A stretch of DNA of 64,000 nt from Cytophagales bacterium Alg240-R148 (GTDB lineage: Bacteria; Bacteroidota; Bacteroidia; Cytophagales; Cyclobacteriaceae), in assembly GCA_900537185.1 (NCBI GenBank), contig LS999827.1, positions 129,001 through 193,000 of the forward strand, written 5' to 3'. Positions 47,233-53,232 of the stretch are shown here, piece by piece. Position 1 is the stretch's first letter. Each line of letters begins with the position of its first letter. The notes under the pieces were generated by a model that made no database searches, was not told the DNA's origin, and was given only the letters and a program-made list of their open reading frames with translations. The position numbers and the translations under genes were made by a program.

Positions 47233-48330
47233 TTACCAAGACAATGATTTTGTCCGAGCAGGTATTGGATAAGATGACGTGACAGAAAAATTAGAACTTA
47301 TGGTTCCATGGCCATGGCCATTGCCCAAATCCTTGAACCAACTTTTATAAGACCCATGTCCCGTTAATGTTGTTAATCTGATTCCGTTGTGATAAAAAGA
47401 CACATTGTAGGTTACATCATACGATTTCCAATTGCAATAAGATGGCGCACATCTTTTTTTCCTACCATTGATGCTTGTTTCAATTCTTGTGTTATTTCTA
47501 ACCCAATAATCAACCACACTGTTCCAATGACCAGGAAGACATTTTTCTTGCCCACCAGGCTTTGGTATACACTCTCCTGGCACCCACACTCTTTTGTATA
47601 CTGGTGCGTAAGAGTGGGTTGTTTTTAATCTTCCTTCGTACCCCCAAATTGTAAACTCCCATGGCCACGCTGTGCAATTACAGCTGTATGTTCCATCGCA
47701 TACCGCTTGAAATACATCATCGGCTTTGGCATTGTTGTTTTCATTGGCAATTGAAAAACCACGGGTATTGTCGTTCAATTCTGGTTGGGGTTTTGATAAA
47801 TTTTCAACAGAAGAAGCACTTGTGTACATTGCCGTATAAATTTGGTCGTTTGTGAACTTCATCACTTCTTCTCCAACAATCACAATTTGGTCCTCATTCA
47901 AAAAAGAAGCCATTAATTGGTTGTTGTATTTTAAATTTGACTCGCCTAAGGCATCTTGCTCTAAAATGGAAGAAAAACGTTCATTTAGATTCACTAAAGC
48001 AGTATTGTAAGCTTCAAAATCAGCTCCTTCCCCTTCGTATTGAGGATCTGCAATAAGTGCCCGCAAAGCATTATTATAACTGTTTTGAAGGTCCAATAAC
48101 GAAGTAAATCCCAAATTCCTTGTGCGCTCAGTAAGTACGGTTAAGTCCGTATTTAAGGAGTTGTCAAAATATTTTTGATAAGTGGTACCATCTTTAAATT
48201 TCAAAACAGTTGCACCATTTACAGCTACAACTTCAATTTCAGGAATACCAGTTTCCATTTCAATTTCCTTATTACAACCATAAAAAAGGACACAAGAAAG
48301 GAGTGTAATTAAAGTAATTTTAATTTTCAT
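47233..48330 (-). CDS. Cys-rich putative lipoprotein, unknown
   Basis: A 365-residue protein starting MKIKITLITLLSCVLFYGCN, with a lipobox (LFYGC). The N-terminal 150 residues are helical (VLTERTRNLGFTSLLDLQNS). The C-terminal half (about 215-365) has paired cysteines: CDGTYSCNCTAWPWEFTIWG, GECIPKPGGQEKCLPGHWNS and CAPSYCNWKSYDV, followed by beta-rich HGNGHGHGTISSNF-like sequence. Such Cys and Trp/Tyr composition suggests a disulphide-stabilised exported beta domain. No family is recognised. It is monocistronic and ends at a bidirectional terminator. Confidence 0.7.
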   Translation of the reverse strand: MKIKITLITLLSCVLFYGCNKEIEMETGIPEIEVVAVNGATVLKFKDGTTYQKYFDNSLNTDLTVLTERTRNLGFTSLLDLQNSYNNALRALIADPQYEGEGADFEAYNTALVNLNERFSSILEQDALGESNLKYNNQLMASFLNEDQIVIVGEEVMKFTNDQIYTAMYTSASSVENLSKPQPELNDNTRGFSIANENNNAKADDVFQAVCDGTYSCNCTAWPWEFTIWGYEGRLKTTHSYAPVYKRVWVPGECIPKPGGQEKCLPGHWNSVVDYWVRNNTRIETSINGRKKRCAPSYCNWKSYDVTYNVSFYHNGIRLTTLTGHGSYKSWFKDLGNGHGHGTISSNFSVTSSYPIPARTKSLSW

Positions 48331-48488: not shown

Positions 48489-49823
48489 TTAAGCTATTTT
48501 CATCCATTGCGCATTTTCTGGAGTGGTAACAATGTTCGCTTTTATTTCGTGCAACATGTTGTACAACCCAAAGAAGGTTCTATTAAAATATATAAAATGT
48601 CTTGACCCTCTTGCCTGCAATTGTTTTAGCTCAGGATCTTTCGATAACCGTTCGCCCATTTCAAAAATTTCTTCGAAAAAAGCTGGCGCCGCAAAATCAA
48701 ATGTTGGGGCACTAATTGGTCTTGTAAGCAATCGGATAAGCTCTACAAAAACTTTCATTACCAGTTTTTTTTCCTTTTTACCATCCTTGGCTTTGATCAT
48801 TTCTAATTCACTAAACAATTCTGCCGTTCTAACCGAATCCTCTAATGTATGCACATCGGTCAGTTCAAAATAGCTGTTGTAAAATGATTTTGGTATCTTT
48901 TTGATACATCCAAAATCGATAATACCCAACTCTGCTTTGTCATTAACCAAAAAATTACCGGGATGCGGGTCGGCATGGAACATCCGAATGGAATGCATTT
49001 GATGGTGGTAGAAGTTCCACAAAGTCTGCCCTACTTTATTCCTATCTTCTTGAGAAGGGTTGCCCTCCACCCACTCTTTTAACGGAGCACCTTCTATCCA
49101 ATCCATGGTCAAAACTTTTTTACTGGAATATTCAGGATAGTATTTTGGAAAATATACGTCGGGTAAATTGGCACAGTGGTTGGTAAGTTGAACCGATTGT
49201 TTTAATTCTAACTCGTAGTCTGTCTCTTCTAACAACTTTTCTTCCACTTCTTTCATATAATGGTCGATGTCCCTAGATTTTACATTCATAAGCTTAAGGG
49301 CAAAAGGTTTTGCCAGCTTCAAATCACTCTGAATGCTGTCCGCAACCCCTGGGTATTGCACTTTTACAGCCAGCGATTTCCCTTCTTTTGTTGCTTTGTG
49401 CACTTGGCCCATGCTAGCCGCATTTATAGCCGATGTTGAAAAGCTTTCAAACATCTTTTCTGGGCTTGTTTTAAATTCTTTCTTGAAGGTGCGCTGTACC
49501 AAGGGATAAGACAAAGGTGGGGCACTGTACTGGGCCTGTGCAAACATATCGGTATAAGCGGCTGGCAACATGTTTTTGTCCATACTCAAAATTTGAGCAA
49601 TTTTCAGGGCACTGCCTTTTAGTGAGCTCAGAGAATTGTATATGTCCGAAGCATTTTCCTTGTCCAAGTCTTCCTTTTTCAAGTTTTTGTTAAAGGGCTT
49701 GGCTACGTAGTGTTTCACATAATTGGAACCCACTTTTACTCCTGTAGAAATAAATTTTCCGGCTCTTTCCACTTTTGTAGTTGGAATATAATCTTGTTCT
49801 TTATTTTTTTTCTTCCCACTCAT
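48489..49823 (-). CDS. ABC1/UbiB-family (AarF) atypical kinase
   Basis: A 444-residue ABC1 kinase, the family of UbiB and mitochondrial COQ8. The N-terminal KxGQ-type segment reads LKGSALKIAQILSMDKN; the usual Gly-Gln is replaced by Ile-Ala-Gln. An Ala-rich loop NAASMGQVHKA replaces the glycine loop, with the nucleotide Lys in AVKVQYPG. The catalytic loop is FHADPHPGNFLV, and the metal motif IIDFGCIK. It probably acts in quinone or isoprenoid lipid metabolism (inference). Its start overlaps the TetR-type gene by 4 bp (ATGA), so the two are translationally coupled. Confidence 0.9.
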   Translation of the reverse strand: MSGKKKNKEQDYIPTTKVERAGKFISTGVKVGSNYVKHYVAKPFNKNLKKEDLDKENASDIYNSLSSLKGSALKIAQILSMDKNMLPAAYTDMFAQAQYSAPPLSYPLVQRTFKKEFKTSPEKMFESFSTSAINAASMGQVHKATKEGKSLAVKVQYPGVADSIQSDLKLAKPFALKLMNVKSRDIDHYMKEVEEKLLEETDYELELKQSVQLTNHCANLPDVYFPKYYPEYSSKKVLTMDWIEGAPLKEWVEGNPSQEDRNKVGQTLWNFYHHQMHSIRMFHADPHPGNFLVNDKAELGIIDFGCIKKIPKSFYNSYFELTDVHTLEDSVRTAELFSELEMIKAKDGKKEKKLVMKVFVELIRLLTRPISAPTFDFAAPAFFEEIFEMGERLSKDPELKQLQARGSRHFIYFNRTFFGLYNMLHEIKANIVTTPENAQWMKIA

Positions 49824-50491
49824 TTCGCTTGCACATTTAATTTTTCAAAAATCGATTTCAACCCCATGTGTTTGCTCATGAACTTTCCAAAATCCACTAC
49901 CGAGTCCAATGCCGAAATATTGAGCACCTGGTAAAAAGTACCGGTGGATTTTTCTATAAAAGCATCCGTTTCACTTTGGTTTTCTGATTTATCCTTGGCC
50001 CAGAATATCAAAACCGACCAAGCATGTTGCCACAATATTTTTTTATGTACCAAAGACACCGGTTTTTCCATCTTCTTTAAAAATTTTAATTCGGTACCGA
50101 GCCATGCGGTTTTATCCTGTGCAAAGTTGGTCCAGAGCTTAATGGCACCAATAAAATCTGGTCGTTTTTTTATTTTAACGAGCCTTTTAATAAATTTTTT
50201 ATCTGCTCCTGCTACTTCTACTAAAGTAAATAAAAACGAGAGGTGTTTTTCATGAAGAGAAAATTGATCGAAACGCTCGTCTTCTTTTAAACCAGCCAAG
50301 GTAGTCTTAAAATATTTTTTAAAAATGGCTGCTTCAATGCTTCGAGGACTGGGGTAGTGTTTTTTGATATCCTGCTTCTGGATATCCGAAAATTCCGCCA
50401 ATTCTTTGATAGAGGAGGGGACGGTTTTTTTTGTCACCACAAACAATTTATAACTTGCTTGGATGGCTTTCTTCTTGATAGTTTTGCCCAT
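49820..50491 (-). CDS. TetR-fold protein coupled to the ABC1 kinase
   Basis: A 223-residue protein starting MGKTIKKKAIQASYKLFVVT; a TTG 17 codons upstream is unlikely. Residues about 1-50 form a TetR-type helix-turn-helix (VPSSIKELAEFSDIQKQDIK, KHYPSPRSIEAAIF), and the rest is all-helical with a TetR-C-like pattern. TetR-fold proteins also include COQ9, a lipid-binding partner in quinone synthesis. Coupling to an ABC1 kinase fits either a repressor of the pair or a COQ9-like partner. A palindrome AGATAGA-A-TCTATCT lies about 95 bp upstream. Confidence 0.78.
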   Translation of the reverse strand: MGKTIKKKAIQASYKLFVVTKKTVPSSIKELAEFSDIQKQDIKKHYPSPRSIEAAIFKKYFKTTLAGLKEDERFDQFSLHEKHLSFLFTLVEVAGADKKFIKRLVKIKKRPDFIGAIKLWTNFAQDKTAWLGTELKFLKKMEKPVSLVHKKILWQHAWSVLIFWAKDKSENQSETDAFIEKSTGTFYQVLNISALDSVVDFGKFMSKHMGLKSIFEKLNVQAK

Positions 50492-50583
50492 TTTGAAAAA
50501 TGATGTTTTATATTTCAACGCAGCAACACAATAATTAGCCAAGAAATTACATTGGTTTATTTGATTAACTGCCGTTTTGCGTT

Positions 50584-50598
50584 AGATAGAATCTATCT
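50584..50598. promoter_or_regulatory. 15-bp palindrome, candidate TetR operator
   Basis: AGATAGA-A-TCTATCT has perfect 7-bp arms around one base. It lies between the last outer membrane paralog gene and the TetR/ABC1 operon, 93 bp before the TetR start. It is a candidate autoregulatory site. Confidence 0.45.
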
Positions 50599-50644: not shown

Positions 50645-51493
50645 TTAATGGTTGCGTTTTCTGAGGGAAACCCTCCAACTCACACCTGCAGATAAAAACC
50701 ATTGGCTATAAGCCGAATTATAAAAGTCGTACCAACCTGGCCCTGTAAAATTCACTCTGTTGTTATTGTATCCACCGTGTAAATCAATCTGTAAGTCGTG
50801 ATTTATCCTCCACAACACACCAGCATCGAATCGAGGCTGCCAATTGCCAACCATAATTTCGCTGTAGTGTTCTAAAAAAACAGACAGATCGTTGCTGAAA
50901 GCTTTACTCAACTTAATAGAGTAAAGTAAGGTTGTACTACTGCTCAAATTGTCTATTCTTGCGGTTAAATTGGTCGAGAATGCCCAGTTGTCCAAAAACG
51001 TTTGGTTCGTGGCCAATCCAACTGCCACTCCTTTTAACCCACCTAAAAAACTTTCGTTAATAATTCCGTAATGTGATTTAAAAAAAACCGCCAAAGCAGG
51101 TTTTAAACCATTCCCTTTTATTACATTACCTCTAAGGTTATAGGACAACTCGCTTAAACCATTGGCCTCATCTTGTGCTCCCGTTGTTGGTGCAATATTT
51201 TTTAAATATTCTAAGTCCACACCAATTTCCCATCGATCCGAAAAACCCAGTCTAAAATGATGAACATTAACAAAATTATAATCGCTAATTTCAAATTCTT
51301 TACTTGAATTACCAGTGGTATTAAGGCCCATTTGCCATTGAAAAATCCATTTACCTACGGTATTGGCAGATAGTGTTTGACCCGGTCGATCGGATAGGAT
51401 AGACTCGTTGTATTGCGCCTGAACCATATGGACGAACAAAAAACACAACCAAAAGCAACATAATTTGGTCCTCTGACTATTTAAAAAAATCAT
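50645..51493 (-). CDS. outer membrane barrel protein, MetA-type paralog 3
   Basis: A 282-residue protein with a signal peptide ending about VQAQ. The mature protein begins YNESILSDRPGQTLSANTVG and FQWQMGLN, then beta strands of a MetA-pathway-of-phenol-degradation-type outer membrane barrel, and ends WRVSLRKRNH. It is the most diverged of three tandem paralogs. No phenol pathway gene is near, so function is unknown. It is the last gene in the long minus-strand run that begins with the RND efflux genes. Confidence 0.75.
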   Translation of the reverse strand: MIFLNSQRTKLCCFWLCFLFVHMVQAQYNESILSDRPGQTLSANTVGKWIFQWQMGLNTTGNSSKEFEISDYNFVNVHHFRLGFSDRWEIGVDLEYLKNIAPTTGAQDEANGLSELSYNLRGNVIKGNGLKPALAVFFKSHYGIINESFLGGLKGVAVGLATNQTFLDNWAFSTNLTARIDNLSSSTTLLYSIKLSKAFSNDLSVFLEHYSEIMVGNWQPRFDAGVLWRINHDLQIDLHGGYNNNRVNFTGPGWYDFYNSAYSQWFLSAGVSWRVSLRKRNH

Positions 51494-51518
51494 TGCAAAA
51501 AATTTATTAATTCAAATT

Positions 51519-52409
51519 CTATTCCGTACTCCCGTGTTTTCCAATGCGCCAAGTAAAACCTGTAGAAATAAACCAATTAGTCACTTGGATTGGATTGGGC
51601 AATTGGTATAATAAAGGATCGTATGGATCTGGAGATAGGAATGTGTAATCCTTTTTGTACCAGCCTCCATACAAGTCGATTTGAAAATTTGAATTGATCA
51701 TATAAGAAGCGCCACCATCGAACTTATTTTGCCATTCGTTATTTTTTATTTCTGAATAGTGTTCCAGAAAAACTGTAAGCTTCCGCTTAAAAGTTTTGTT
51801 CATATTTATCGCATATATAACGGAGTTATAATCTGAACCATTGTTATTTTTTACACCCAAATTTGTGGCCAACCCCCAAGTATCCCAAAACGTTTGACTC
51901 GTTGCAAGCATCAACTGCGGCTCAAAAACCTCGTCATTTTCACCCAACTTCTGCAAAGCCAACTGTACTCCAATTGTTGGTTTGACACCAGCACCTTTTA
52001 ATACATTAACTCTAGCATTGACTCCGAAACTGGTAGAACTTTTTGGTTCACCTCTATTCGGTAAATAAAACTCCTTATACCATGCCGTTTCTGACACCAC
52101 ATCCAATCCAACTTCAAAGCGCTCAAAAAGACCATATCGAAGGTTGTTTGAGTTGACAAATACTTTGTCATATGCTTCCAAATCTTTAAAACTTGCTCCA
52201 GCGTATTCCAATCCCATTTGCCATTGAAAAATTCCTTTTCCAACTGTATTCGCACTTAGTGCTTGCCCAGGTCTGTCAGAACTTAAAGATTCACTATATT
52301 GAGCACAAGAGGATTGTACAGTTACAAAAAAGATTAAAACGAAAAGTCCTAAAAATTTCAGATAATTTAAAAACACCATGAATACAAAATTATTTCTATT
52401 AATTTTCAC
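51519..52409 (-). CDS. outer membrane barrel protein, MetA-type paralog 2
   Basis: A 296-residue paralog with a signal peptide whose Cys lies in VQSSCAQYSESL, a possible lipobox-like site. It shares the block RPGQALSANTVGKGIFQWQ with paralog 1, encoded by 76 identical bases. The rest of the barrel is only moderately similar. The start overlaps the end of paralog 1 by 11 bp; an in-frame Met ten codons later (MVFLNYL) is an alternative start. Confidence 0.75.
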   Translation of the reverse strand: MKINRNNFVFMVFLNYLKFLGLFVLIFFVTVQSSCAQYSESLSSDRPGQALSANTVGKGIFQWQMGLEYAGASFKDLEAYDKVFVNSNNLRYGLFERFEVGLDVVSETAWYKEFYLPNRGEPKSSTSFGVNARVNVLKGAGVKPTIGVQLALQKLGENDEVFEPQLMLATSQTFWDTWGLATNLGVKNNNGSDYNSVIYAINMNKTFKRKLTVFLEHYSEIKNNEWQNKFDGGASYMINSNFQIDLYGGWYKKDYTFLSPDPYDPLLYQLPNPIQVTNWFISTGFTWRIGKHGSTE

Positions 52410-53232
52410 TGCTATGTTGGCCTATTCTCCAGCTCAGGCCAGTGGAAACAAACCAATTGTTTAGATCCACATCCACGGGGGCTACATCTGGTCCAAACCC
52501 TGGTAATCGCAGCAGGTCTTTGTAATAACCTCCATATAAATCTATTTGGAAATTTTTATTGAGGGCAAAGGCCATCCCTCCATCAAATTTAGGACTGAAT
52601 TCTTTATTGGTCCACTCCCCATAATGCTCAATAAATAACAACAATCCATTGTTAAAAGATTTGTTAAAATTGAGAACATAATTTAGTGTTTCATAATTGG
52701 AATCAACATTGCTTTTAATGCCCAAGTTGATTGAAAGACCCCATGAATCCCAAAAAGTTTGACTTGTTGCAATTACCAATTTGGCATCCCACCCTTTTTG
52801 GTCAATATCGGCTTTTACCATTGATGCATGCATTGCCAAAGCTGGATTGGCATTCTTTCCTTTTAATATATTAGCACGCATGTTTAAACCAAGGTCATAC
52901 ATACCATTAAACACTGTAGTTTCCATGTTACCAGCTTTTTGTTTTCCTTTTTTTAGAGAGAAATCAGCACCTAACTCTACCCTTTCCATTATTCCTATGC
53001 GAAAATTATGCACATTTGAAAACACCCTTTCTTTATAGTCATATTCTTTTACACTATACCCTCCATAATCCAATCCCATTTGCCATTGAAAAATTCCTTT
53101 TCCAACTGTATTCGCACTTAGTGCTTGCCCAGGTCTGTCAGAACCAATGGACTCAGCATATTGAGCCTGAACCAAATAACTCCAAAAAAAGAGCAGAAAG
53201 GACAGAAAAAATTTAATGGTTTCACTTTTCAT
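52399..53232 (-). CDS. outer membrane barrel protein, MetA-type paralog 1
   Basis: A 277-residue paralog with signal peptide (about 1-23, ending VQAQ) and the shared block RPGQALSANTVGKGIFQWQ at about residues 33-52. The barrel ends WFVSTGLSWRIG. First of three tandem copies, 53 bp downstream of the 55-residue small protein gene. The family is annotated as phenol-degradation MetA-type barrels, but the real substrate is unknown. Its place behind Cus-type genes suggests a link to metals or to envelope stress (inference). Confidence 0.75.
   Translation of the reverse strand: MKSETIKFFLSFLLFFWSYLVQAQYAESIGSDRPGQALSANTVGKGIFQWQMGLDYGGYSVKEYDYKERVFSNVHNFRIGIMERVELGADFSLKKGKQKAGNMETTVFNGMYDLGLNMRANILKGKNANPALAMHASMVKADIDQKGWDAKLVIATSQTFWDSWGLSINLGIKSNVDSNYETLNYVLNFNKSFNNGLLLFIEHYGEWTNKEFSPKFDGGMAFALNKNFQIDLYGGYYKDLLRLPGFGPDVAPVDVDLNNWFVSTGLSWRIGQHSSEN

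Follow-up and report, generated by a model that had tools for sequence, protein, structure and literature searches.

A COQ8-type kinase and its obligate TetR-fold companion in Bacteroidota look like a bacterial counterpart of the COQ8/COQ9 pair

The window analysed here is a stretch of 64,000 nucleotides from Cytophagales bacterium Alg240-R148, whose genome is available as seven contigs totalling 5.3 Mb. It holds two overlapping genes on the minus strand, encoding an atypical kinase of the ABC1 family and a TetR-fold protein, hereafter the partner. The features considered are the following.

48489..49823, minus strand: COQ8-type ABC1 atypical kinase, 444 aa (PF03109, E 2.9e-58)
49820..50491, minus strand: TetR-fold partner, 223 aa from its ATG, TetR_C_23 family (PF17931, E 1.1e-17)
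49820..49823, minus strand: ATGA overlap formed by the partner stop and the kinase start (sequence, ORF ends)
49943..50005, minus strand: D-x-S-x5-T-x-x-F loop segment FWAKDKSENQSETDAFIEKST, partner residues about 163-183 (motif count, hhalign)
49859..49912, minus strand: putative C-terminal helix of the partner ALDSVVDFGKFMSKHMGL, residues 194-211, moderately amphipathic, at the position of COQ9 alpha-10 (model, hydrophobic moment)
50584..50598, no strand assigned: 15-bp palindrome AGATAGAATCTATCT, judged non-functional (shuffles, upstream regions of relatives)

The partner frame runs from an ATG at 50491 to its end at 49820; a TTG at 50542 could serve as its start instead. The 4-bp overlap reported by the initial annotation is exact, and on sequence grounds translational coupling of the two genes is likely. 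Beyond the kinase gene, 47233-48330 (minus strand) encodes a protein of 365 aa, putatively secreted or a lipoprotein, which has no Pfam or NCBIfam match. On the other side, positions 50645-53232 (minus strand) carry three tandem paralogous genes of 282, 296 and 277 aa that share the N-terminal signature ES..SDRPGQ.LSANTVGK.IFQWQMGL; they probably encode outer-membrane barrel proteins, and the one tested gave no significant match in Pfam or NCBIfam.

The window kinase does carry atypical kinase motifs, as the initial annotation had pointed out: NAASMGQVH, AVKVQYPGV, ETDY (the ExD motif), HADPHPGNF and DFG. Against the UbiB equivalog model the protein reaches 167 bits, far under the cut-off of 488, and its closest solved structures in the PDB are mycobacterial MABP-1 and mitochondrial COQ8B and COQ8A. 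A tree of 38 rows, comprising near and distant paired kinases, COQ8B, MABP-1 and UbiB-type kinases including that of E. coli, places all paired kinases in one clade (100/99) and groups them with COQ8B (90/73) and MABP-1, an exact placement that is soft because both are long, partial rows; the split from the UbiB-type kinases, E. coli UbiB included, is supported at 100/99. As judged from its sequence, the window kinase is thus of the COQ8 type and not of the UbiB type. It shares with COQ8A/COQ8B (ADCK3/ADCK4) and MABP-1 the ABC1 domain, the Ala-rich loop, ExD, the catalytic loop with its Asp and DFG, as well as membership of the same clade. The exception among the COQ8/ADCK3-type hallmarks is KxGQ, which is known to matter for COQ8 function (PMC7877690). 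COQ8, MABP-1 and E. coli UbiB carry the glycine; the window kinase (at about residues 74-77) and every distant paired kinase aligned read KxAQ, and one near relative reads KxTQ. For this reason we speak of a COQ8-type kinase rather than of COQ8. In the sequences at hand KxAQ appears as a distinctive change of the paired kinases, which further differ from COQ8A/COQ8B and MABP-1 by a NAAS or AAAS loop and by being bacterial and nearly always accompanied by a TetR-fold partner.

That association extends far beyond the window. Among 59 related genomes, one of which is the window's own, the partner gene is present in 44, and all 44 encode the kinase; a COQ8-type kinase is found in none of the 15 genomes that lack the partner, one of which (G038) has only a distant ABC1 match. 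Searching these 15 pairless genomes again with a larger profile recovered no partner, bar two weak matches of the ordinary TetR type. The kinase adjoins the partner in 39 of the 44 genomes, and the two are separated by about 2 kb in G007 and by 10 kb in G044; in three others (G037, G054 and G056) the kinase is on another contig or far from the partner, yet it is kept. The pair is missing in several genera of one family, and therefore it has probably been lost more than once. When one genome per species was scanned, 485 relatives were confirmed (a genome-wide scan that used only the divergent window protein returned nothing, and a family alignment was needed to find them). In the best 80 of these 485, at named Cytophagales loci, the kinase invariably lies downstream on the same strand (80/80), with a gap within 200 bp in 79 and within 20 bp in 54. 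Across a phylum-wide sample, the best 30 matches all have the kinase beside the partner, 25 of them within 100 bp and five within 0.8 kb. Farther out in the phylum, in families whose kinases are only 33-41% identical, the partner is upstream at all examined loci with a COQ8-type kinase; the three loci that have no partner (L175, L235 and L236) carry ABC1 genes only 24-28% identical. Outside the phylum, no TetR-like gene directly precedes any of seven annotated ABC1 loci on plasmids of Proteobacteria and Actinobacteria, and the partner profile, run against these seven and four unannotated ABC1 loci, found nothing but a match confined to the helix-turn-helix, on the other strand, in Nonomuraea. 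No pair was found in viral contigs.

The pair is therefore real and not a local oddity. In the window's genome, simple adjacency and nothing more would fit chance operon neighbours with unrelated roles; the co-occurrence in 44 of 44 genomes versus 0 of 15, the unlinked cases and the lack of the pair in several genera of a single family make this explanation highly improbable. The pairing is obligate, and the two genes make up a single functional unit. Around the pair no further conserved neighbours were found and no lipid-biosynthesis gene is consistently adjacent; genes for a lipoyl-domain acetyltransferase (PDH E2)-like and an HslV-like protein were considered as pathway hints and set aside as only lineage-specific.

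The partner belongs to the Pfam family TetR_C_23 (64.8 bits, cut-off 29.1), as do all 80 aligned relatives; the Pfam entry names the domain only and gives no function. AlphaFold (AF2) models of the window partner (pLDDT 78.5) and of a Marivirga relative taken as family model (91.2) both adopt the TetR fold. Of the TetR-type N-domain claimed by the initial annotation, the topology is seen in the predicted model; a Pfam match is not. Indeed, TetR_N (PF00440) does not match the window partner, while it matches nine other TetRs of the same genome, a true TetR of which scores 2e-14.

The fold, together with a regulator-then-target gene order, invites the view that the partner is a ligand-responsive repressor of its own operon, and hence of the kinase. 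The palindrome, which is exact and lies 92 bp upstream of the partner gene, had been proposed as its operator. Nevertheless, the palindrome is no more than chance would give: 12% of shuffled versions of the 153-bp intergenic region contain one with 7-bp arms. A coding frame contains the only other exact copy in the genome, and upstream of 108 homologous genes no conserved one was seen; the operator idea fails because the palindrome is not conserved upstream of relatives. Loss of DNA-binding residues, which the initial annotation had suggested looking for, is evident at the family level: the lysine kept in 28 of 28 ordinary TetRs (six of them missed by the pattern and scored by eye) is replaced by phenylalanine in 78 of 80 family members, and the DNA-contacting (recognition) helix is acidic. 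A repressor would accord better with the window partner itself, which is divergent there, with a proline at the lysine site and basic surroundings, and with distant members, which keep the lysine in FPNK and score weakly on TetR_N (1e-4). Against this, the window partner has no recognisable TetR_N domain, and in one distant family the helix-turn-helix domain is gone in six of eight partners (profile match 58-218 of 220), which keep the C-domain and still adjoin the kinase. The retention of both genes even where they are unlinked also argues against a regulator acting on its own operon. All in all, a repressor seems unlikely, and the partner appears, from its sequence features, to have given up DNA binding. 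In one of the six partners without a helix-turn-helix (L169, 4831-5892, minus strand), a CYTH domain (PF01928, E 7.5e-20) precedes the COQ9-like C-domain in a single fused frame, and the kinase gene follows directly.

A TetR fold combined with a COQ8-type kinase brings COQ9 to mind, since COQ9 has this fold with no DNA binding predicted, binds or co-purifies with isoprenoid lipids, menaquinone-8 included, and attaches to membranes through an extra amphipathic C-terminal helix (PMC9774615). One point of resemblance is a D-x-S-x(4,5)-T loop, present in 95 of 110 partner family members and in human and Sphingomonas COQ9, and in 0 of 28 ordinary TetRs. An hhalign comparison of the C-domain with COQ9 gives E 4.7e-4, where five control TetR groups give 0.13-0.59; the result is suggestive and not proof because it covers 21 aligned columns and the COQ9 profile comes from four sequences. 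Full-length hhalign was discarded as a COQ9 test: it is dominated by the helix-turn-helix, is uninformative and does not favour COQ9 over other TetRs. The C-terminal helix, at 195-209 in the predicted model, has a moderate hydrophobic moment (0.38) and a conserved D..DFaKF. The partner thus resembles COQ9 (PF08511; human 6AWL and 6DEW) and the bacterial COQ9 family in its TetR fold, in a helix-turn-helix probably not used for DNA binding, in the D-x-S-x5-T loop between alpha-8 and alpha-9, in a predicted extra C-terminal helix and, as we propose, in sharing a pathway with a COQ8-type kinase.

There are differences too. The window partner scores E 0.018 and 15.1 bits on PF08511 (cut-off 20.5) and 15.4 bits on TIGR02396 (cut-off 74.55), a model that is among the weak matches of 16 family members; since both curated models leave it under their cut-offs, we claim no COQ9 membership. 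Identity to COQ9 is about 10-15%, the partner gene is coupled directly to the kinase, and the hosts are expected to use menaquinone, not ubiquinone. The structural comparison with COQ9 proposed at the outset bore out the shared TetR fold without singling out COQ9. Human COQ9 6AWL matches with Z 11.7 for the window model and 13.1 for the family model, compared with 17.4 for 3c07; the top matches are TetR-family structures. The fold was accordingly dropped as proof of COQ9 kinship, 3c07 and FadR-type chains matching equally or better; with COQ9 tied with many TetR chains, structure supports the TetR fold and not COQ9 specifically. The third match, 3NI7 of Nitrosomonas europaea (Z 15.1), resembles the partner both in fold and in its loop, FWMRDESENSRHTRQFL being closely like FWAKDKSENQSETDAFI of the partner; it differs in that its sequence is itself related to COQ9 (E 1.3e-7 with Sphingomonas COQ9).

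In TetR proteins the C-domain generally surrounds a hydrophobic pocket. In the partner this domain is invariably retained, and it is here that the likeness to COQ9 lies, which speaks against a mere adaptor, activator or substrate of the kinase that carries no lipid itself. Such a role would suit the strict co-occurrence with the kinase and the strongly conserved residues of the C-domain and of the helix-turn-helix, which, though degenerate, is conserved in its own way. It would also recall COQ8: this ATPase/atypical kinase is stimulated by cardiolipin and by CoQ intermediates, and partner COQ proteins likewise stimulate it and raise its ATPase activity (PMC7615680). We nonetheless hold an adaptor without lipid to be rather improbable.

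The reading that we favour, with moderate confidence, is that a TetR-fold lipid-binding partner and a COQ8-type membrane-associated ATPase/kinase act jointly on an isoprenoid lipid. The two proteins look like a bacterial counterpart to human COQ8 and COQ9, a pair concerned with membrane lipids. The suggestion of a COQ8/COQ9-like pair in the initial annotation hence finds strong support in the sense of working alike, given the COQ8-type kinase, the obligate pairing, the degenerate or absent helix-turn-helix and the COQ9 loop motif; neither the curated models nor the structures establish direct common descent with COQ9. In this model, the TetR-fold protein, no longer a DNA-binding regulator, would have become a lipid binder, probably for an isoprenoid, peripherally attached to the membrane, and the ABC1 protein would be a COQ8-type membrane-associated ATPase/atypical kinase acting with it. 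We infer lipid binding and membrane binding by the partner and its direct contact with the kinase. Together, they would probably make a hydrophobic quinone or another isoprenoid accessible to an enzyme, or move the lipid within the membrane. Most economically, labour would be divided as in COQ8/COQ9, between a partner that holds the isoprenoid and an ATPase that assists in its extraction, presentation or distribution.

Menaquinone had been named as a possible pathway. The window's host encodes menA, and so do 14 of the 15 relatives without the pair; a need for the pair in core menaquinone synthesis is therefore unlikely, and the assignment is not upheld. The pair more likely serves an accessory step in lipid metabolism or the distribution of quinone. 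A bolder scenario, in which the COQ8-COQ9 partnership predates ubiquinone synthesis as a two-gene bacterial module of a COQ8-type ATPase and a COQ9-like TetR-fold lipid binder, with the Bacteroidota pair as its minimal survivor serving menaquinone or another isoprenoid, strikes us as quite improbable.

Both protein families are already catalogued; the pair itself is apparently undescribed, as we found no published description of it in the open-access literature. How COQ8 uses ATP and how COQ9 and COQ8 cooperate are open questions in coenzyme Q biology, for which a two-gene bacterial module with both protein types, dispensable in some relatives, would offer a minimal and genetically tractable system. 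Besides, under the proposed function the TetR_C_23 proteins that automatic annotation labels transcriptional regulators in many Bacteroidota genomes would need a new label. Finally, 3NI7, labelled a TetR regulator in the PDB, may on its sequence be a COQ9-like lipid binder.
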